Assembly (NCBI GenBank): GCA_006954465.1
Contig: LVVU01000041.1
Location: 11,533-21,783, forward strand
Length of the DNA: 10,251 bases
Direction: 5' to 3'
Source of the DNA: Candidatus Methanoprimaticola hominis
Lineage (GTDB): Archaea > Thermoplasmatota > Thermoplasmata > Methanomassiliicoccales > Methanomethylophilaceae
Shown here: positions 1 to 10,024 of the stretch, one piece after another
Layout: every line of letters begins with the position of its first letter
Position numbering within the stretch: the first letter of the stretch is position 1
The notes under the pieces: generated by a model
The model's input: only the letters and a program-made list of their open reading frames with translations
Told to the model about the DNA's origin: nothing
Database searches by the model: none
Translations under genes and position numbers: made by a program

Positions 1-760
1 TGACCACGGTCCACTCGGACCACTTGTGGCCGAGGGCGGGGATAGTCTCCGTCCTGGTCTCTCCGCAGGAGCATTTGTAGGTCTTGATTCCCGGTTCCGT
101 GCAGGTCGGTTTCTTGGTCACCGTTCCGGAGTCCCAAGTGTGGACGTGCGGCGAATCCGAAACGGATATCGAGCAGGTGGCCTTGAGATCCCCGACCGAT
201 GCGGTGATGACGGCCGTACCGGCGGAAACCGCCTTGACAGTGCCATTCGACACCGTAGCGACGGAAGTATTGGACGAATTCCATACGATATCCTTCTCGA
301 CCGCATCGGCAGGGACCACTGAGGCTTTCAGAACGATCGTCTCCCCGACCGTCATCGGGACGGACGTGTAGTCTATCGTCACTCCTGTCGCATGGATCAC
401 TTCGGCGACGGTGATGGCGATATGCCAATCGTCATCGCCGCATACTACACGCAACGTGTGCGTTCCTATAGACAGCCCTCCGGGGACGGCGAACATACCT
501 GGATTGACTGGAATAGGAGCCGAGGTCATGCCACCGTCTATGGAAACGGTGAAGTAATCCGCACCTGGTTTGTCGGAGAAGGATACGGTCAAGATGCCGT
601 AACCCGGATTCGACGAATCGATATAGCTGACAGAAACCCCGTCGTGCGACGCCGTACCCTGATTCTCTCCTGCCGTGTCGATACCCGGAAGCATCAACAC
701 AATGGCCTGGAGCAACATCAGGGATATCGCCAGGATCGCTGTCGCTTTCTTGCTATCCAT
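1..760 (-). CDS. Secreted Ig-like (Big2) surface protein with Cys/His repeats, N-terminal part
   Basis: The first 253 codons are present and the C-terminus lies beyond the left edge. Residues 1-30 form a signal peptide (MDSKKATAILAISLMLLQAI, then a hydrophobic stretch ending near DTA). Residues 41-120 look like a small beta-sandwich module. Residues 125-200 match a bacterial Ig-like group 2 (Big2) domain, with the typical run of a valine-tryptophan strand, SVATV, NGTVKAVSAGTAVITA. Residues 205-250 are a repeat common in Gram-positive surface proteins: HTW, then PTCTEPG, YKCSCG and IPALGH, and a second copy begins at HKWSEW. I chose the start at 760 because AAGGTGG lies four bases before it; an in-frame ATG at 778 overlaps the previous gene's stop. 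This is the fourth gene of the putative operon. Its role is probably surface adhesion or display; the ligand is unknown. Membrane anchoring cannot be judged without the missing end. Confidence 0.85.
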   Translation of the reverse strand, partial: MDSKKATAILAISLMLLQAIVLMLPGIDTAGENQGTASHDGVSVSYIDSSNPGYGILTVSFSDKPGADYFTVSIDGGMTSAPIPVNPGMFAVPGGLSIGTHTLRVVCGDDDWHIAITVAEVIHATGVTIDYTSVPMTVGETIVLKASVVPADAVEKDIVWNSSNTSVATVSNGTVKAVSAGTAVITASVGDLKATCSISVSDSPHVHTWDSGTVTKKPTCTEPGIKTYKCSCGETRTETIPALGHKWSEWTVV

Positions 761-774: not shown

Positions 775-3414
775 TCATGCTCCTGCTCTGACGACCGTCA
801 GCGGCTGCCCGTAGTAGAATAGTCTGTTGTTGCCATCGGCAATGATGCCGTTCACCTTGTATTGCGCATTCCCATCGCCGTTGACATCGACGGTGTAGTA
901 TCCGTATCTCATAGAATCGCCAGCTACGACCGGAGTTCCGTTGAAGCTGAGCGTGAGCCCGGAATCGATGGTGAGATCGACCGTTGCATAAACGGTCGGA
1001 ACTACTTCCTTGACATACGGCGTGCTGTAGAGCACGGAATCGATCTCGTAGCAGCATGTCACCGTGACTGACTCCATCTTGGGAACGTCTTCAGGTGAGA
1101 ATATTGCCCTATTCTCGTCCTTGGTCATCTCGACAATACCTCTTAAGAACGGATTGAGTACCATTCCCTCAGGCAGTTCGACATATGCGGAATACGTTAC
1201 AACGAGCGTCTTATCAGGTGCATCCGCACCAGATTCCACGGACAATATAACGGATTGTCCACCGTTAACGAACTGTTCGACGGTTACGGAGTTGATGAGT
1301 TTCGATTCTTCGATGATACCTGTCCTAGCATAGATCGTGGTATCAGTTTCCAACGGCTTGGTCGGATCGAATGCGTTCTTGAACTCCGGATCGATGAACC
1401 AACCGAACGACATTCCTGCAGGTACTGAAGGGTTGTCCAGCACCAGCGGATCAAAGGAAGTAACAATTCTGACATCCTTGCTGTTCCCGATGATGATGGT
1501 GACTTCGATGGCCTGATAGAACTTGGTGCGGTCATCGGCCTTGGATACGAAGGTCCTGCCTTTGAGGTTGTCTGCGTTCACAGCCATCTCCGCTCCGGAG
1601 ACGTCGTAGAACGCGATGCCGTTCTGAGCGTACATCTTGGTGATGCCCGAAGGGAACGAGATCCTTTCGAGCGATGTGCATTTCGACAGCGCGTCTTTGG
1701 ATATCCTGGTGACGGTATCGGGGATGACCAGTTCCGTCGCATCGCCGGTTCCCAGAACCAGCCTGACGAGCTTGGTGCCGCCCTTCCCCCCTCCGTAATC
1801 GAGAGCGTAGACTGCTCCGTCCTTCACCTGGTAGTAACCGTTCTCCGCGGTCTGCTTGATATGCTTGACCGAAGGGATCTGGAGAAGCTGCTGCACCCAC
1901 TTGTCGAGTCCGCCCGAGTCTGACATGGAGCCGACCAGCCACGTTCCGATATCTATCGTCTCGATGCTGATCCCGTTGGTTGAGATGTTGTTGATGGCAT
2001 ACTGCCCGGACAGCCTTATCTCCTTGAGCGAAGAGCAACCCTCGAAAGCGCTCAACTCCAGACCGTTCTTGTAATCGACGCCGACATCGAGACTCTCGAG
2101 CGCGGTGCATCCCTTGAAGAATCCGGGCGAGAGGTTCACGAAGGAGTTCTCGAACTCGCTGAATATCTTCACCGATCTGAGATTCTTGCAATCCATGAAG
2201 ACATTGTTCTCGAAGTTCGCGGTCGCCCCGTTCCAGGTATTCACCTTTATCTCTATGCTCTCCAGGCCCGAGCCGCTGAATGCAGACCGTCTCAGCCCCA
2301 TATTGTCTACAGCCCTGCCGGAGAAGTCGAAGCTCCTCAGCGATTCGCATCCGGCGAACATCTCCTTGGAGATGGTCACTGATCCTATCGAGGTGCTGTA
2401 GATGATGTTCACATCGCTCAGCCGCTTGCAGTCCTTGAACAACCCCTCCGGGAAGACATAGCTGGCACGTATCGGTACATCCTTGAACGAAACCTGGTAG
2501 AGGGTTATGCTTTCGATTCCGGAACCGGATAGGGCCCCCGTGCCCATCTTGATCGACGGGTAGGTGGTGATCTCCTTCAGCGAGGTGCATCCGCTGAAAG
2601 CATAGTCCCCGATGGTGCGTGACGGACCGGACCAATCCGCTGCGTTGTACACTTCCGGCTCGATCTCATCGTATCCGATGACGACCTTCTCCAGCGAGGT
2701 GCATCCCTCGAAGGCGTTGTTGCCGACGGTCGTGACGGATTTGGGGATCCTGACGGTCTTCAGAGCGGTGTATCCCTTGAACTTCCCCTCGGGTATACCG
2801 GTGACGCCTTCCAGGAAGACGATCTCCGTGACCTTGTTCTTGGATTCCTCTGTCAGAGCGGTGTAGTCGAAATCCACTCCGATCTCCAGCTTGGATGTTG
2901 GATCAGGAGTTTTTCCGGCTATGTATACGCTATTAATTGTAAAGACCGGACTGACGTCATTTCCAGATGTGTCCTCTATAAAACCATTATCTCCGAGAGA
3001 GACGTTGAAAACGCGTTCACCAGAGATCGGGTCTGCCGAAACTTCGAAGATAAGGCTTAACAGCACTCCGTCACCTTTTAGATCCACCAGGTCGTTGCTA
3101 CTTTCACTGACACCGATCTTTATCTTCCCCGATTTCTGATAATCGGCTATCTGACTACCATTTTGATAATAGATCTCGAGCTTGTATGAGGTTCCATCCG
3201 TCGTCGCCCCTTTGTATATAAGAGCGGAATTGTCGAATTCTACGTAGAATTCCGCAATGTTGAATCCCGGGTTCGATGACACATGGATGGGAACGACCAC
3301 CCCGTCTCCTGCCGAATACTCGGTAGCATCGACAGAATCGGATGGCACGGCCAATAGGCATAACGCCATCGCCGCGACCAATAGCATCGTCGCTGACAAT
3401 TTGCTTCTCATCAT
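775..3414 (-). CDS. Secreted cohesin-domain BspA-type leucine-rich repeat protein
   Basis: The product is 879 aa. Residues 1-30 are a signal peptide ending at SDSVDA. Residues 31-168 resemble a type I cohesin: AGDGVVVPIHV, then FYVEFDNSALIYKG, then KGDGVLLSLIFEV, and a last strand ending VYIAGK, in the order of known cohesins. Residues about 176-620 carry roughly eleven BspA/LRR_5 repeats marked by FEGCTSLEKV, MDCKNLRSV and similar. Residues 631-699 form an InlB B-type repeat (FGWFIDPEF, then TTIYARTG). The remaining 180 residues are beta-rich and unrecognised. Cohesins bind dockerins in a calcium-dependent way; the upstream gene ends in a dockerin, so the two products may bind each other. 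I chose 3414 (3411 is equally possible) because it directly precedes the signal peptide and follows AGGT; the frame stays open to an ATG at 3477. There is no C-terminal membrane segment. The exact domain limits are estimates. Confidence 0.9.
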   Translation of the reverse strand: MMRSKLSATMLLVAAMALCLLAVPSDSVDATEYSAGDGVVVPIHVSSNPGFNIAEFYVEFDNSALIYKGATTDGTSYKLEIYYQNGSQIADYQKSGKIKIGVSESSNDLVDLKGDGVLLSLIFEVSADPISGERVFNVSLGDNGFIEDTSGNDVSPVFTINSVYIAGKTPDPTSKLEIGVDFDYTALTEESKNKVTEIVFLEGVTGIPEGKFKGYTALKTVRIPKSVTTVGNNAFEGCTSLEKVVIGYDEIEPEVYNAADWSGPSRTIGDYAFSGCTSLKEITTYPSIKMGTGALSGSGIESITLYQVSFKDVPIRASYVFPEGLFKDCKRLSDVNIIYSTSIGSVTISKEMFAGCESLRSFDFSGRAVDNMGLRRSAFSGSGLESIEIKVNTWNGATANFENNVFMDCKNLRSVKIFSEFENSFVNLSPGFFKGCTALESLDVGVDYKNGLELSAFEGCSSLKEIRLSGQYAINNISTNGISIETIDIGTWLVGSMSDSGGLDKWVQQLLQIPSVKHIKQTAENGYYQVKDGAVYALDYGGGKGGTKLVRLVLGTGDATELVIPDTVTRISKDALSKCTSLERISFPSGITKMYAQNGIAFYDVSGAEMAVNADNLKGRTFVSKADDRTKFYQAIEVTIIIGNSKDVRIVTSFDPLVLDNPSVPAGMSFGWFIDPEFKNAFDPTKPLETDTTIYARTGIIEESKLINSVTVEQFVNGGQSVILSVESGADAPDKTLVVTYSAYVELPEGMVLNPFLRGIVEMTKDENRAIFSPEDVPKMESVTVTCCYEIDSVLYSTPYVKEVVPTVYATVDLTIDSGLTLSFNGTPVVAGDSMRYGYYTVDVNGDGNAQYKVNGIIADGNNRLFYYGQPLTVVRAGA
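2911..3324 (-). other. Cohesin-like domain coding segment
   Basis: This segment encodes residues 31-168 of the 879-aa LRR protein. The pattern fits the nine-strand cohesin fold: a glycine followed by a VVVPIHV strand, a short strand with an FDNSAL turn equivalent to the F-x-YDP region, a central DLKGDGVLLSLIFEV strand, and a final GFIEDT to VYIAG stretch. It sits directly after the signal peptide, so it would be exposed at the mature N-terminus. By hand count the DNA at 2881-3240 is about 45% G+C, against about 55-60% in three sampled LRR lines of the same gene. The family call rests on motif order by eye. Confidence 0.75.
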
Positions 3415-3418
3415 AATT

Positions 3419-3422
3419 ACCT
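3419..3422 (-). promoter_or_regulatory. Weak ribosome-binding site for the cohesin-LRR gene
   Basis: AGGT on the minus strand lies four bases before the ATG at 3414 and seven before the ATG at 3411. It is weaker than the sites of the neighbouring genes but favours these starts over the upstream in-frame ATG at 3477. Confidence 0.4.
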
Positions 3423-3433
3423 GTGTGTATGAT

Positions 3434-3466
3434 GCAGGCCGCATCACGAATCGGTATGCGGCCTGC
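3434..3466. repeat. Perfect 11-bp inverted repeat (stem-loop) in the intergenic spacer
   Basis: The arms GCAGGCCGCAT (3434-3444) and ATGCGGCCTGC (3456-3466) are perfect complements around an 11-nt loop. It occupies most of the 59-nt gap between the dockerin gene's stop and the cohesin gene's start, ending 11 bases before the AGGT site. In the minus-strand transcript it is not followed by a U-run, so it does not look like an ordinary intrinsic terminator. On the plus strand it is followed by GTTTGTTT, but no plus-strand gene needs ending there. A role in processing, mRNA stability or differential expression is inference. Confidence 0.7.
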
Positions 3467-3473
3467 GTTTGTT

Positions 3474-6400
3474 TCATGCAGAAGTCTCTTTTATCAAGAC
3501 CTTCAGTGCCCGCAAGTCCTTCAGATTCACCAATCCATCGCCGTCGACGTCATCTGCCGAGGTCTGGATGGAATTCTTACGGTTTGCCTTCCAGACCTGA
3601 AGGTCCTTGAGGTCGACCATTCCGTCGCCGTTGACATCGCCGACCCACATGGCCTTGAAGGTGACATCGGCGGAAGCGGTCATGCCCGAGACGTATCCGT
3701 CCCATCCTTTGAACTCGATCTTGCTGCTGTTCTTGTTCACAGGAGTGTCAGGGAGGGTTATCTCCTGACCCTCGGTCACCTGAATAGTCTCCGATCCCCA
3801 TTGGGTCTCGAACGTCACAGCGTATTGCTTCACCTGAGCGGCGTCGAACTTCGCGTAGAACGTCTTGTCGCCATAGACTCCTATGGGGATCGAAGCGATG
3901 GACTCACCCTCGAAATTCCCGTTATCGTACCATCCCAGGAACTTGTGGCCACTCCATTCCGGAACGGGCAGTTCCGAACCTTCGGAGGCATAGTACCTAA
4001 GACCATCCACAGCGTCGCCCGGAGTGATGAAGGAGATCTTGTACGACGGCGCGATGCAGAAGAGATATCCCGAATCGTTGTAGTACAGGATCTCGCCGTG
4101 AGGTCCGAAGTGCACGATCTGGCTGGAGTATTCGCGGGTGTCGATCACATCCCTGAGCGGAATCGAAGTCAGGGTATTGGTTCTCTGGTCATGCTCGAAG
4201 ATATAGAGCGTCCTGGACGAATCGTACGGCACCAGATAGGAGTACACCTTGTCTCCCTGGACCGAGACCGCCATGTTCCCATGGCTCATCATGGAAGATA
4301 CCGACTTGACCGTCTTCATGGTCTCCATGTCTATGACTCTGAAGGTGGTCCCCGCATTGATGTAGCCGTAATCTCCTACGACAATCAGAGAGGACGGATA
4401 ACTGGTCGTTCCCAGTTTGTAGTAGCGGACCGTCACCGGATCGAACACCCCGTCCGATCCCAGATCGATGGAAGCTATCGAATTCCAGGAACCAGGAGCC
4501 GTGGAGAACATGTTGGAGTTGGGGGAGTATGTGTTGAAGTACGCCGTGCCGTTGTAGTAGCTGATGTACCCTGTGTTCAGATTGCCTGATTCTATCTCGT
4601 CGAATCTGAACGAGTCTATGTACTGCAACGTATCGATGTCATACGTCACCAGATACCTGTTCTGATCGCGGTCCCCGTCGAATTCCAGACCGATTATGAA
4701 TCTGTCTGTGAATATCAGATTGGATTGGCCCTGGTACCACGATATGTAGTGGGTGTATCTCGCGTCACCCGAGACCACCGGCAGCTGGATGTTGTTGGAA
4801 TCGGGATCCGAATCCGTTGCACTGAACTTGTAGACTCCGGAGTCGGTGAACACATAGAAGTACCCCTCGTTGTAGTAGGTCTTCAGTTCGCTCGATGGCC
4901 TGCCCTCCTCCAGATGGAGTCTGAACACCGGATTCAGATCCGCATCGTACACCTGGCCGGCGAATCCTGCCAGGACATATCCGTTACCGACCGTGACCAT
5001 GTTGTAGTAGAGCGAACTGGTGATCTTGCCCGTATCCACCTTCTTCACGATCTCCCCGGTGAGGAGGTCGATCTTGAAGATCTCGGTATCGGACCATGAA
5101 TACACGTAGTCGCCAAGGATGGACGGCGTGTACACCATGCCGTTGAATCCCTTGGTACCGATGGCCTTCCATACCATCTTGCATTCGTCCAGCGATGTGG
5201 GCGTCTTGATGTCGGTCTCAAGGTACGGGTAGGACGAGAGCGTGTACTCGGATGTCACGTGCACCTTCATGTCGGCTTCCGCTTCGAGAACGCGCCTGTT
5301 CTCTATCGACTTCACAGAAACCCCATTCACGATCCACTCCCGGGCCTCGAAGCCGATGGTCGGACGATAGCTGAGGAGAAGGGTCGTGTCGTTAAGCACG
5401 GACTCCCCGCTCTGTATCGTGCGATTCAGATTGAGGTCTTTGATGGTGATCGTACCGTTGTCGGCGTCAGCGACGATCTTGCGGTACACAGGCTCGGAGA
5501 CCCATCCAGCTTCGACAGATATGTCGGATACCACGCCCTTGGTGAAATCGAAGAGCTCGCCATCGACATACCATCCGGTGAAGGTCTGCCCCTCCCTGGT
5601 CGGAATGCCGGGGAATGGTACGAGATGTCCCGATACCACGGAAACGGTGGAATAGGGATCTGCTCCATTCACGGATACGAATGTGACGGTGCGTTCGGCG
5701 ATAGGTCTGATGCCGTTTACCTCCAGTTTGCAGTCCGATACGACATCGTACGAGCATACATACCTGGATCCCGACTTCTCGAACCGAAGGGGTTCGCCGT
5801 TGATCTTCACCGACAGACCTTCTCCGGAGACCTCGTACCCCTTCTCGGGGATGATTCCTATCACGATGCGCGTGCCATGGGTTATTCCATCGGTATTCAG
5901 AAGCGAATACGATACCGCTGCTCCACGTACCGCGTCAGTTGTCAGAGCGTATTTGTTCAAAACGATGTTGTTGAATGACAGGATCTTGGAACCCTGGAAT
6001 TGCGGAATCACGTACGATCCGTCGGATTCTGGAGACAGAACGGCAGAGCCGTCCTTCAGTTCGTATTCCGATCTGTTGTATGGATTCTTCAAATTCAGAG
6101 TCAGCCGCACAATGTTGCTCTCAGCTCCTATTCCGAGCGTGGCAGAATCCTTGGGGATCTGTACAAGAAGGAGGCCGTCGCCTGCGCGTACGAAATACCC
6201 GCCGAACAGCTCCAGCGTGTTTCTGTTGATTCCGGGAGTGGTCTTCAGACTGTCGACCACCTCTACGGAAGCACGGTAATCGAAAAAGACGTAGGCATGT
6301 ATGGTGGCATCCATTCCGAATGTCGGAGCATCCTTAAGCGAGTCTATAGCCACATTTCTAACGTACCTCATGGACAGGACGTCCAGGTACTCCACCGAAT

Positions 6401-9101
6401 CCGGAAGGACCACCGTATCGACGTACTCCGTGTTGGAGGCGAACGCATACGGCTCTACTCTCACGACCCCCGAGGGGATGATGAAGCAGGACGTAGACAC
6501 CTTGCTCTTGTCCACATATACGAGTTCGGCATCGGTGAGAGTACCCGAACGTCCTTTCGGCTCGAAATACAGTCCGCCATCTACGTAGCTGAAGTAGCGG
6601 TTCTCACCATCCACCGAAATGGAGCGATATGTGCGATTATCCAGAAGAGATGCTGATATCGCAACGTCATCGCGGCCGATGGATAGGAGGCTGCTGTCCT
6701 TAAGGGAGCATATCATATAACCGTCCACCAGTCCGTTGCCGGTCTGGAGCTTGACGGGCATACGGCCGTCGTCTCCGATCATAGATCCAATCATCGCCAT
6801 ATCGGATGAGACCTTGAATGCGGACCCTCCCGAGACTATGATGTTCCCGATATTGCTGGAATCGAAGATATCCCCTACAAGATTGGGCGCGGACTCTATG
6901 ATGAGGTTGTTTATTTCAGCCCCACGGAATACGGAGTTCTGGGAGAATTCCGGACATCCCCTTATCGTTACGTTCACTCCATCCGCGGTATCGGTTCCGA
7001 TATCCATGAACGCAAGACTGCCCACCGGAACTGTATCATATCTCTTCTCTACGGCCAATGTCGAAGGCAACGTGATATTCTCCAAGGATCTGCAATCTCT
7101 GAATGCATTTACTCCGATCGAGAACACCCCTTCGGGGATGTCCACGGATTCCAATCCGGTTCCGCTAAAAGCCATATCTCCGATTATCTGCAACCCTTTT
7201 GGAAGATCGATAGACTTCAGAGAAGTACAACCGTGAAACGTGCTACCGGGAATGGACGTCAGATTTTCCGGCAGGATAACCTCCGATAGCGACGAACACC
7301 CGTAGAATATACTCCCCGCTTCTGAATAGGATGTGGATGCCGAAGGGATGTATCTGAGGAGAATATCCGGATTCTCGAACACCACTCTGGTCAGATTCTT
7401 GCAATCAAAGAACACCTGCTGTTCGATCGTATTCACGGACGCAGGTATGGTCACCGATTTCAATCCCGAATCTGAAAAAGCGCCGCTATAGATATAAGAG
7501 ACTCCGGTCAGATCTATGCTCTCCAACGAGGTGCAACCGCGGAACATCCCAACCGGGATGAAGGACAGGTCCTTCGGCAATTGGACATTGCTCAGGTTCT
7601 TGCAATCCCAGAACAACGATGTACCCATAGTCAGATTGTTCATGCTGCTCTCGAATATCACCGATCCGAGCTTCTCGTTCCCATAGAACGCGCTGTTGCC
7701 TATCGAACGTATCTCCGAAGTGACGGTATATTCCATGAAAACATCTGGGACATAGTACAGTACGTTATCCGATATGACCGGTTCCGAGATGGCCGTGTTC
7801 TTGAGGGCTCCTCTCCACAGGTTCAAACCATTCGGGATGTCATGCAGCTTGGCAAGACGGGTGCATGTGGAAAGGGAGTCGGACCAGACATCCACAAGGG
7901 TGTCGCACAGATAGAGCTCGACCATATTGTCACAGGCCGTGTATGCCCAGTTGTAAATCGACCTGATGCCCTCCGGGACATGATAGATCCCAGTCTCGTC
8001 GCGAAGCGCGAATACCAGCTTATCTCCCACGATCACCTCCGTCCGAAGACTGGTGCAACCTTGGAATGGACTCGTAGTAGAGACGTGCACCAGCCGACAC
8101 CCGTTGAGATCTATCCCCTTGAGATCCGTGCAGTCCTTGAACGCATACTCCCTCAATTTGGTTAAGGTACTGGGAAACGTCACCTGCTCCAACGAACTGC
8201 AACCTTGGAAGAATGAACCGCCTATGGATTCTATCCCCTCACGAAGAACGACGGTCTTCAAACCGGTGCAATTCTCGAAGACACTGAACGTGTTGACATA
8301 GTCCCGGCCGGTGCCGCAGCCGAAGACAGCGTATTCGATGGATGAACACCCTTTGAAAGCATTGTCCACAAGCTGGATGCCATCGGGCAACACGACCCCT
8401 TCCTTCTTCTCGGAGGAGGCCGTATAAACATTCCTAAGGGCGGTGTCGCCTGAGAAACAAGTACTGATCTCTGCGAGCGAATCGGGCAGACAGACGTCTA
8501 CCAAGGATGTGCATCCCTGGAATGCACCCGACGGCAAAAGAGTCAGATTCGGACAATCGATACGGACCGTCTCCAGCCTCCCGCATCCCTGGAAAGCCCC
8601 CTTCTGATTATACCCGCCCGGAATGGTTCTGCATTCCGAAGATATCACAACGCTTTTGATCTTATCATCGCCAGCGTAAACCTTTATGATCTCGGAGCAG
8701 AGGACAAGGTGCTTGTATTCGCCCTCCATGAGGACGATCTCGCACTTCGGATAATCCTGGAGTCCGAAGATGCTGGGTATCTTGTCCTTGAAAGCGACAT
8801 ACGGTGCAATCACCGTCTTCACTTTCTCGCAATTCGAAAGACTGCCTTCGGTGATTCTCGAAACATTGTTTTCGATCAGGACCCCGTCGATTTTTGCCCA
8901 ATCCGAAGCACTCAGGTCCAGTTGTGAACTGGAATCGATATTGCTACGGATCACGAGGGTAGATCCGTCGATCGAATACGCGGATCCCCCGCTCCCGATG
9001 ACCTCGGCATCCGAGGAATCCGTCGGGGAGCAACAGATCGCGAGAACAAGTGCTACGAGAACTGCCGATAGAACGAGCTTGAAGCGACGTTCTCCATGCA
9101 T
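3474..9101 (-). CDS. Giant secreted LRR, InlB-repeat, beta-propeller protein with C-terminal dockerin
   Basis: The product is 1875 aa. Residues 1-32 are a signal peptide (basic HGERRFK, hydrophobic core, ending SSDA). About 75-920 hold some twenty BspA/LRR_5 repeats (AFQGCTSLVDV, FWDCKNLSNV, FHGCTSLKSI). Residues 1137-1200 are an InlB B-type repeat (FTGWYVDGELFDF), and 1205-1287 a divergent relative. Residues 1306-1684 contain about eight short beta-sheet repeats (DYVYSWSDTEIFKIDLLTGE; YGYINAGTTFRVIDMET), probably a PQQ/YVTN-like propeller. Two more InlB repeats (1686-1753, 1758-1819) precede a type I dockerin at 1820-1871 with two calcium loops. LRR_5 and InlB modules serve adhesion in other microbes; the dockerin should dock to a cohesin, and the next gene encodes a candidate. 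I chose 9101 because GGTGAT stands three bases upstream and a signal peptide follows; the frame runs open to 9254 but that would overlap the preceding gene. No hydrolase or membrane anchor is visible. Confidence 0.93.
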   Translation of the reverse strand: MHGERRFKLVLSAVLVALVLAICCSPTDSSDAEVIGSGGSAYSIDGSTLVIRSNIDSSSQLDLSASDWAKIDGVLIENNVSRITEGSLSNCEKVKTVIAPYVAFKDKIPSIFGLQDYPKCEIVLMEGEYKHLVLCSEIIKVYAGDDKIKSVVISSECRTIPGGYNQKGAFQGCGRLETVRIDCPNLTLLPSGAFQGCTSLVDVCLPDSLAEISTCFSGDTALRNVYTASSEKKEGVVLPDGIQLVDNAFKGCSSIEYAVFGCGTGRDYVNTFSVFENCTGLKTVVLREGIESIGGSFFQGCSSLEQVTFPSTLTKLREYAFKDCTDLKGIDLNGCRLVHVSTTSPFQGCTSLRTEVIVGDKLVFALRDETGIYHVPEGIRSIYNWAYTACDNMVELYLCDTLVDVWSDSLSTCTRLAKLHDIPNGLNLWRGALKNTAISEPVISDNVLYYVPDVFMEYTVTSEIRSIGNSAFYGNEKLGSVIFESSMNNLTMGTSLFWDCKNLSNVQLPKDLSFIPVGMFRGCTSLESIDLTGVSYIYSGAFSDSGLKSVTIPASVNTIEQQVFFDCKNLTRVVFENPDILLRYIPSASTSYSEAGSIFYGCSSLSEVILPENLTSIPGSTFHGCTSLKSIDLPKGLQIIGDMAFSGTGLESVDIPEGVFSIGVNAFRDCRSLENITLPSTLAVEKRYDTVPVGSLAFMDIGTDTADGVNVTIRGCPEFSQNSVFRGAEINNLIIESAPNLVGDIFDSSNIGNIIVSGGSAFKVSSDMAMIGSMIGDDGRMPVKLQTGNGLVDGYMICSLKDSSLLSIGRDDVAISASLLDNRTYRSISVDGENRYFSYVDGGLYFEPKGRSGTLTDAELVYVDKSKVSTSCFIIPSGVVRVEPYAFASNTEYVDTVVLPDSVEYLDVLSMRYVRNVAIDSLKDAPTFGMDATIHAYVFFDYRASVEVVDSLKTTPGINRNTLELFGGYFVRAGDGLLLVQIPKDSATLGIGAESNIVRLTLNLKNPYNRSEYELKDGSAVLSPESDGSYVIPQFQGSKILSFNNIVLNKYALTTDAVRGAAVSYSLLNTDGITHGTRIVIGIIPEKGYEVSGEGLSVKINGEPLRFEKSGSRYVCSYDVVSDCKLEVNGIRPIAERTVTFVSVNGADPYSTVSVVSGHLVPFPGIPTREGQTFTGWYVDGELFDFTKGVVSDISVEAGWVSEPVYRKIVADADNGTITIKDLNLNRTIQSGESVLNDTTLLLSYRPTIGFEAREWIVNGVSVKSIENRRVLEAEADMKVHVTSEYTLSSYPYLETDIKTPTSLDECKMVWKAIGTKGFNGMVYTPSILGDYVYSWSDTEIFKIDLLTGEIVKKVDTGKITSSLYYNMVTVGNGYVLAGFAGQVYDADLNPVFRLHLEEGRPSSELKTYYNEGYFYVFTDSGVYKFSATDSDPDSNNIQLPVVSGDARYTHYISWYQGQSNLIFTDRFIIGLEFDGDRDQNRYLVTYDIDTLQYIDSFRFDEIESGNLNTGYISYYNGTAYFNTYSPNSNMFSTAPGSWNSIASIDLGSDGVFDPVTVRYYKLGTTSYPSSLIVVGDYGYINAGTTFRVIDMETMKTVKSVSSMMSHGNMAVSVQGDKVYSYLVPYDSSRTLYIFEHDQRTNTLTSIPLRDVIDTREYSSQIVHFGPHGEILYYNDSGYLFCIAPSYKISFITPGDAVDGLRYYASEGSELPVPEWSGHKFLGWYDNGNFEGESIASIPIGVYGDKTFYAKFDAAQVKQYAVTFETQWGSETIQVTEGQEITLPDTPVNKNSSKIEFKGWDGYVSGMTASADVTFKAMWVGDVNGDGMVDLKDLQVWKANRKNSIQTSADDVDGDGLVNLKDLRALKVLIKETSA
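3489..3644 (-). other. Type I dockerin domain coding segment
   Basis: This encodes residues 1820-1871. It has two F-hand calcium loops of the form D-x-N/D-x-D-G-x-x-N/D-x-x-D: DVNGDGMVDLKD (D1822, N1824, D1826, D1830, D1833) and DVDGDGLVNLKD (D1851, D1853, D1855, N1859, D1862), each followed by a helix-like segment. All calcium ligands are intact. The pair lies at the extreme C-terminus, the usual place for dockerins. Positions 10 and 11 of both loops, which help set cohesin specificity in clostridial dockerins, are Leu-Lys. Confidence 0.92.
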
Positions 9102-9127: not shown

Positions 9128-10024
9128 TCACGCGGAAGGATATCCGGGGAATGTGGGGGAGTCGTCGCTGCTGGGGGAACCCCAGAAGATCAGGCCGATG
9201 TACGAGCTGTCGACGCTGGTGATATAATACAGGGTGGTGTTGTTGAAAGCCCATGTTCCCCTAGGATTCCCAGAAGCGGGCTCTGCGTGATATTGGGCCC
9301 AGTAGTAATATGTAGAGTCTGTTCCGGCATAGGTGCCCAGTCCGAGCAGTTGGTTGATCCATCCTGAGGATCCGATACTGTGACTCCATTGGTTTGTTGA
9401 TAGATACCACTGCAATGCAGAGAGTGCATTGAAGTTGGTATAGTTCTGGGTTTGTGCCTGAGTAACGGTGACCCAGAATCCGTTGTTGAAATCTGCCATC
9501 GTTTTCCCCGCAGGGAGTGAAACCGTTGCTCCCTGTAGCTGAGCCTCAGCATACCCCTCAGGATCGATCTTGAAGAAGAAGTGGAACTCGGTCGCATTCG
9601 CAGTAGGGCTGCTGAATACGACAACGACCACGGATGCCACATAGGGCTCGGTCAGGCCGCTACCGGTTATCTGAGCTACGAGCTCGACCGAACCTACGGT
9701 CTTGCCGTATACGGTGACCGATCCCCCGGTTGCCGTATAGATGTTCTCAGAGTCACTGAAGGATACACAATTTCCGTCTCCGATATTGGTCAGGCTCCAA
9801 CTCACATTGGAACCGCTATATCCACTCGGAATTGTACTCTCCTTCACACTGTACGTCGTCGAATGGTTGGCACCGGCAGCCACATAGATGACTGTCGTGG
9901 GCTCGTTCAATTCCAGATTGCTATTGGGTGTAAGCGAATCGGAATCGCCCGCCATACCAAACGGTATCAAGGCAGCAACCATCAACAAGGTGACCGCTAC
10001 TGCAAAGACGGTTTGTCTTTTCAT
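9128..10024 (-). CDS. Secreted Ig-like protein with possible DUF4430-like domain
   Basis: The product is 298 aa. Residues 1-26 are a signal peptide (MKRQTVFAVAVTLLMVAALI, ending near GMAG). Residues about 35-140 resemble a Big2-type Ig-like domain (NVSWSLTN, then GGSVTVYGKTVGSVELVAQI). Residues about 145-285 form a second domain rich in aromatic residues: LSALQWYLSTN, GWINQLLGLGTY, STYYYWAQYH, then an LYYITSVDSSYIGLIF strand. This order is reminiscent of DUF4430, related to the transcobalamin C-terminal domain, but the match is by eye and weak. Several N-glycosylation sequons (NVS, NAT, NYT, NNT) are present, as in archaeal surface proteins. It is the first gene after the candidate promoter, 26 nt before the dockerin gene. 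The start at 10024 is chosen for the signal peptide and an AGGA eight bases upstream; the frame's extension to 10096 begins inside the TATA box. No dockerin, cohesin or membrane anchor is visible. Function unknown. Confidence 0.87.
   Translation of the reverse strand: MKRQTVFAVAVTLLMVAALIPFGMAGDSDSLTPNSNLELNEPTTVIYVAAGANHSTTYSVKESTIPSGYSGSNVSWSLTNIGDGNCVSFSDSENIYTATGGSVTVYGKTVGSVELVAQITGSGLTEPYVASVVVVVFSSPTANATEFHFFFKIDPEGYAEAQLQGATVSLPAGKTMADFNNGFWVTVTQAQTQNYTNFNALSALQWYLSTNQWSHSIGSSGWINQLLGLGTYAGTDSTYYYWAQYHAEPASGNPRGTWAFNNTTLYYITSVDSSYIGLIFWGSPSSDDSPTFPGYPSA

Follow-up and report, generated by a model that had tools for sequence, protein, structure and literature searches.

A dockerin gene directly upstream of a cohesin gene on leucine-rich repeat proteins of a methanogenic archaeon: a candidate non-cellulosomal pair

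The role of cohesins and dockerins outside cellulosomes is described as largely open, above all in archaea, in the accessible parts of two reports (PMC9012536, PMC5244752). A stretch of 10,251 nucleotides (nt) from Candidatus Methanoprimaticola hominis (contig LVVU01000041.1, positions 11,533 to 21,783), referred to here at its full length as the window, raises this question in compact form: do two neighbouring genes, the first ending in a dockerin and the second beginning with a cohesin, encode proteins that bind one another, and do so without a cellulosome? We propose, with a probability of roughly 0.55, that their products, gA and gB, form a cognate, non-cellulosomal archaeal cohesin-dockerin pair in which gA would dock on gB. 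The plug-and-socket principle is already known; it is the carriers that are unusual here, two adhesin-type proteins built of leucine-rich repeats (LRRs). The elements concerned are as follows.

3474..9101, minus strand: gA, a predicted secreted protein of 1875 amino acids that carries LRR_5 and Flg_new (Listeria-Bacteroides) repeats and ends in a dockerin
3501..3641, minus strand: type I dockerin of gA (PF00404), residues 1821-1867, with two F-hand repeats
3415..3473, minus strand: gA-gB spacer of 59 nt with a strong hairpin, palindrome arms at 3434-3449 and 3451-3466
775..3414, minus strand: gB, a predicted secreted protein of 879 amino acids with an N-terminal cohesin followed by LRR_5 repeats; alternative start at 3477
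2935..3333, minus strand: cohesin of gB (PF00963), residues 28-160

The preliminary description of this locus had reported a complete type I dockerin at the end of the 1875-residue protein and a cohesin-like domain at the mature N-terminus of the product of the next gene, 59 nt downstream on the same strand, and had proposed to check both domains against Pfam. Both assignments were significant, and the gap from the gA stop codon to the gB ATG is indeed 59 nt. For the dockerin, gA scored 23.5 bits against Dockerin_1 in a whole-protein scan (cut-off 22.9), and its last 66 residues scanned alone reached 27.7 bits (E 3.1e-6). Both calcium loops are intact, with D or N at positions 1, 3, 5, 9 and 12 of each F-hand, so that the calcium-ligand positions are kept. 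The two repeats are identical at 12 of 22 residues and have in common LK at positions 10-11 and K at position 17, which we take to be the dockerin recognition positions. Sequence matches of this end in the Protein Data Bank (PDB) include dockerins (e.g., 4dh2, E 2.9e-4, and 6kg9, E 7.8e-4) as well as other calcium-binding proteins, the top row being a chain named serine protease (E 2.4e-4). A homolog search with the dockerin region returned four proteins, three of them distant and one (P0027) 94% identical within that region.

For the cohesin, the first 172 residues of gB matched PF00963 at 33.8 bits (cut-off 24.1, E 4.6e-8). Eight of the 14 distinct domain sequences found among gB and its homologs were scanned, the window's own included (32.4 bits), and all eight matched at E<=0.001; moreover, a precomputed PF00963 assignment exists for 19 of the 21 gB homologs (the exceptions being P0006 and P0025). 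Against PDB sequences the domain gave weak matches in which cohesins came first when it was searched as a single sequence (4ums, E 0.0051; 10uw, E 0.032), and an alignment profile likewise matched cohesins weakly, with a best E value of 0.029.

The junction between the two genes is itself informative. On the sequences, the gA-gB junction is conserved across the gB homologs, and the gA end is probably conserved along with it, because 18 of the 21 homologs open with a peptide that matches the translated gA-gB spacer and starts from an ATG overlapping the gA stop; in the remaining three (P0011, P0012 and P0014) the start was called at an internal ATG. The window has the same in-frame ATG, overlapping the gA stop codon as ATGA at 3477, and its use would give gB an N-terminal extension. 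Since 18 of 21 homologs were called from that position, the true start of gB is uncertain between 3414 and 3477. Two further observations are indirect signs that the pair is conserved: P0027, homologous to gA, and P0009, homologous to gB, represent 106 and 105 member sequences, and the longest contig is 57068 nt both for P0022, a gB homolog, and for P0033, a homolog of g1, the gene upstream of gA. The spacer holds a near-perfect palindrome (3434-3466) with a predicted folding energy of -23.6 kcal/mol, which none of 200 shuffles matched (z -5.24), and eight residues that this palindrome could encode are absent from P0022. The hairpin might terminate transcription or modulate it. Read-through from gA into gB was considered and dropped, the two genes lying in different frames.

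Beyond these terminal domains, gA and gB are BspA-type LRR proteins, with PF13306 over its cut-off in both. Their best repeat stretches are listed below.

7389..7739, minus strand: best of five LRR_5 stretches in gA, residues 455-571 (PF13306, E 2.2e-83)
3849..4043, minus strand: best of three Flg_new (Listeria-Bacteroides) stretches in gA, residues 1687-1751 (PF09479, E 1.4e-19)
2497..2835, minus strand: best of five LRR_5 stretches in gB, residues 194-306 (PF13306, E 2.7e-40)

The partners had been called LRR/InlB adhesion-type proteins. The LRR part of that description holds for both, and the Listeria-Bacteroides (InlB-type) repeats are over their cut-off in gA; in gB, Flg_new remained below the Pfam cut-off, so that the InlB half of the label applies to one partner. 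Residues about 1250-1685 of gA (window positions 4046-5354) contain no Pfam family over cut-off and show propeller-like repeats by eye. In one gB homolog, P0010 (1363 amino acids), some 460 residues of the LRR block appear to be duplicated in tandem.

Precedent for such a pair exists in the archaea. In Archaeoglobus fulgidus, the accessible part of the relevant report places a dockerin in ORF2375 (residues 432-506; ORF, open reading frame) and a cohesin in ORF2376 (residues 29-162), and describes their binding as strong and specific (PMC9705933). Nearly the same anatomy is found in gA and gB, two adjacent archaeal ORFs of which the first ends in a dockerin and the second begins with a cohesin, and the two pairs also agree in the consecutive ORF numbers of the one and the adjacency of the other and in the place of the cohesin (29-162 vs 28-160). 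The likeness is one of description. A. fulgidus is a hyperthermophile, its partners are not described as LRR/InlB-repeat proteins in that part of the report, and binding is reported there, whereas gA and gB are known from sequence. Elsewhere among the archaea, cohesins of a corrosive Methanococcus have been suggested to help anchor extracellular enzymes, as far as the accessible text goes (PMC11452385). On the bacterial side, Ruminococcus flavefaciens provides a partial parallel to gA, since it too has secreted proteins that combine LRRs with a dockerin (PMC4081043); unlike the window, it has a cellulosome rich in enzymes, each strain possessing 180-223 dockerin proteins, and the accessible text mentions no LRRs on the cohesin side.

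We calibrated the significance of adjacency on 148 bacterial genomes from the order of G001, a Saccharofermentans sp. metagenome-assembled genome that carries locus L007. At E<=0.001 a cohesin was found in 59 of these genomes (49 over the cut-off), a dockerin in 80, and both together in 49. A dockerin lay within 1 kb of 44 of the 65 bacterial cohesin places, and all 44 pairs had the same arrangement, with both domains on one strand, the dockerin first and the cohesin 136-283 nt downstream of it. Of the 59 cohesin-bearing genomes, 43 had one or more of these pairs, and in 39 every cohesin place was paired. Twelve of the 44 (L039-L050) were inspected at the level of genes, and in every one the frame encoding an N-terminal cohesin was preceded by a dockerin-ended frame, with an overlap of the longest frames in L045. 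This repeated placing of a dockerin gene before a cohesin gene has the look of a hallmark of partner proteins, and with A. fulgidus and this calibration as precedents, a pairing of gA and gB appears likely and biologically plausible.

The bacterial pairs resemble the window in having a dockerin-ended gene directly upstream of, and closely spaced from, a gene that starts with a cohesin, and differ from it in what the domains are attached to. A second, C-terminal hydrophobic segment was present in 11 of the 12 bacterial cohesin partners, unlike gB, which lacks one. Among the ten bacterial dockerin partners scanned (E<=0.001), Dockerin_1 was found in all ten (nine over the cut-off), Cadherin-like in nine (eight) and SH3_3 in seven (six); no LRR was listed in these ten, and neither SH3_3 nor Cadherin-like was listed in gA. 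By appearance the bacterial pair is a non-cellulosomal, membrane-held pair of partners, perhaps engaged in cell-wall work. In the protein of L041 a glucosaminidase-like stretch was seen by eye, for which Pfam listed no glucosaminidase. A literature search that included a term search of PMC11557425 gave no sign of this bacterial pairing of an SH3_3/Cadherin-like dockerin protein with a cohesin, within the text it covered.

If gA and gB are partners, the following would be expected. Both proteins, with their signal-like N-termini, would be exported. Outside the cell, the C-terminal dockerin of gA, loaded with calcium, would bind the N-terminal cohesin of gB, and docking would unite the LRR solenoids of both proteins in a single large complex that would bind ligands and probably be adhesive. 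Type I dockerins have a dual-binding mode, and because the F-hands of gA are near repeats, its dockerin may by this mode dock in two orientations. A role of the complex in adhesion to a host, to fibre or to other microbes is plausible. To be retained on the cell, the complex would have to be held by g1, by gC (the gene downstream of gB) or by another protein.

Several observations weigh against this pairing, and some of them feed competing explanations. Cohesin was absent from the listing when all 879 residues of gB were scanned with Pfam at E<=1; this miss is probably an effect of the speed filters of HMMER, given that all eight domain sequences match and 19 of the 21 homologs carry a precomputed PF00963. 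The strong hairpin in the spacer could separate the expression of gA and gB. The conservation of the pair, as read from these sequences, spans a narrow group, because the gB homologs are 80-97% identical across the cohesin. Finally, no transmembrane anchor is visible in gA or gB by a hydrophobic-segment scan, so that the complex at the cell surface suggested earlier is a possibility only.

The lack of an anchor bears on the alternative that survives best, which we regard as possible and still unlikely: both domains are real but find their partners among other proteins of this genome, with gA and gB as parts of a larger network. Other cohesins and dockerins elsewhere in the genome may then be the true partners, and gB, being without a transmembrane anchor, is no obvious docking platform. 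In the calibration, no dockerin lay within 1 kb of 21 of the 65 cohesin places, a minority that speaks for such a network and against a fixed pairing. Anaerobic methanotrophic (ANME) archaea furthermore possess many cohesin and dockerin proteins, of unclear function and with a possible role in cell-cell contact, according to the accessible text of two reports (PMC9012536, PMC5244752). Like gA and gB, these are archaeal and are not tied to cellulose use; unlike the single cohesin and single dockerin of the window, they come in large sets, with scaffoldin-like multi-cohesin proteins and with partners of surface-layer (S-layer) or ATP-binding cassette (ABC) transporter type. Against a network stands the commonness of adjacency in precisely this order (44 of 65), which is also seen in the A. 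fulgidus ORF numbers.

A more doubtful alternative is that the domains are relatives by fold only, the end of gA being a calcium-stabilised EF-hand cap and the start of gB a generic beta-sandwich spacer, which would stabilise two LRR adhesins that do not dock. In keeping with this, EF-hand_1 was also over its cut-off when the end of gA was scanned alone (27.1 vs 25.4 bits), and the AlphaFold model of gB, built with 22 close sequences, is uninformative over the cohesin. Block means of its per-residue confidence (predicted local distance difference test, pLDDT) were 22-33 over residues 31-170, and the cohesin fold, a nine-stranded jelly-roll, is therefore left unconfirmed by the model. Similarity to the bacterial paired cohesins was also near shuffle level, and this too weighs against our reading: a profile of 12 of them scored 9.2 bits on the window cohesin, where the best among 200 shuffles reached 8.9 bits, and an hhalign comparison with 10 of them gave a probability of 29% (E 5.8e-4, 39 columns). 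On the other side, PF00404 and PF00963 are both over their curated cut-offs, and near-repeated F-hands next to a cohesin gene would be an odd coincidence, since PF00963 was found in only 1 of 14 and PF00404 in 2 of 14 control genomes.

The same comparisons speak to the origin of the archaeal pair. With phmmer (filters off), the window cohesin reached at best 2.9 bits against the bacterial paired cohesins, and the gA dockerin matched the dockerins of those pairs weakly, with a best score of 11.6 bits (L042). Recent transfer from the sampled bacterial set is not favoured, because there is no direct sequence link between the archaeal and bacterial cohesins by phmmer, by profile or by hhalign. The window pair is an analogue of the bacterial pairs and not a copy of them, because the anchor and the SH3_3/Cadherin-like domains are missing from it and the cohesin similarity is near shuffle level.

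A cellulosome would be the classical setting for these domains, and the clostridial cellulosome indeed uses the same two domain families. It is distinguished by an array of cohesins, and in the window there is one cohesin, in gB; the scans of g1, gA and the gC fragment listed no further one. The statement of the preliminary description that no carbohydrate-active enzyme is visible was confirmed: in a Pfam scan of the four window ORFs (gC partial), no glycoside hydrolase, lyase, esterase or carbohydrate-binding module (CBM) family was over its cut-off. Rows naming pieces of enzymes occurred below the cut-offs, namely LRR_EndoS in gA and gB, HL_N-beta and MalQ_N in gC, and the dockerin end of the CelK cellobiosidase. 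With a single cohesin and without such families in the four ORFs, a cellulosome was dropped as an explanation, and a minimal archaeal form, in which dockerin-bearing hydrolases encoded elsewhere in the genome, outside the window, would use the gB cohesin, is very improbable. We consider equally remote a docking across domains of life, in which the gA dockerin or the gB cohesin would plug into the cohesins or dockerins of fermenting bacteria and hold the methanogen alongside them, even with single cohesins and dockerins as common as they are in the sampled bacterial order (59 and 80 of 148 genomes) and with methanogens of this kind living on hydrogen and methyl compounds that fermenting bacteria release.

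Our preferred reading of gA and gB as a cognate pair has also to be seen within its gene row. The minus strand of the window carries four co-directional genes in the order g1, gA, gB and gC, with intergenic gaps of 26 nt (g1/gA), 59 nt (gA/gB) and 14 nt (gB/gC), and this co-directional packing suggests that gA and gB are expressed jointly with g1 and gC. Each of the four has a signal-like hydrophobic segment at its N-terminus and no other hydrophobic segment (for gC, in the visible part); in gA it lies within residues 4-29. The two outer genes are these.

9128..10024, minus strand: g1, a predicted secreted protein of 298 amino acids from a family with Methanomassiliicoccales members, its N-terminal half immunoglobulin (Ig)-like; it stops 26 nt before gA
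2..760, minus strand: gC, a predicted secreted protein whose first 253 amino acids are visible, cut by the window end, with a Big_2 domain (PF02368, E 5.2e-14)

No Pfam domain was over its cut-off in g1. Its N-terminal half is Ig-like by an AlphaFold model and structure comparison, Foldseek alone giving weak global matches (TM about 0.2), and its C-terminal half had no standout match in a comparison of the whole protein, though one may yet emerge when that half is searched separately. We collected 82 g1 homologs, of which the only two with an organism name both belong to the Methanomassiliicoccales (P0037, a Methanomassiliicoccaceae archaeon, 54% identity; P0111, Candidatus Methanomethylophilus sp., 36% identity). 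These two homologs also support assigning the window to that archaeal order. Columns YWAQY and FN are invariant in 63 aligned sequences of the family.

A scan of genome contigs with two LRR words of gB found eight bacterial loci, which matched in the LRR part only, at 24-30% identity, and one scan of viral contigs confirmed no gB relative. Plasmids gave 17 records, none spanning 80% of gB; the ten listed were below 32% identity, and their annotations, where present, named LRR or surface proteins.

Relatives of this archaeon in the Methanomassiliicoccales live in animal guts, where LRR and Listeria-Bacteroides proteins are counted as adhesion factors in the accessible text of PMC7883539; the words 'cohesin' and 'dockerin' each occur 0 times in its main text. 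A search of the literature on Methanomassiliicoccales or Methanomethylophilus together with cohesin or dockerin returned no such pair in titles or abstract openings, subscription papers being mostly uncovered, and the cohesin and dockerin genes of PMC13317134 are bacterial in the part of that paper that is accessible. As a compact adjacent pair on adhesin-type proteins in a gut-associated order of methanogens, gA and gB offer a small and directly testable case. If the two proteins do pair, they would provide a non-covalent route by which a methanogen could assemble large adhesins, and this would bear on how methanogens attach to their hosts or to partner microbes.

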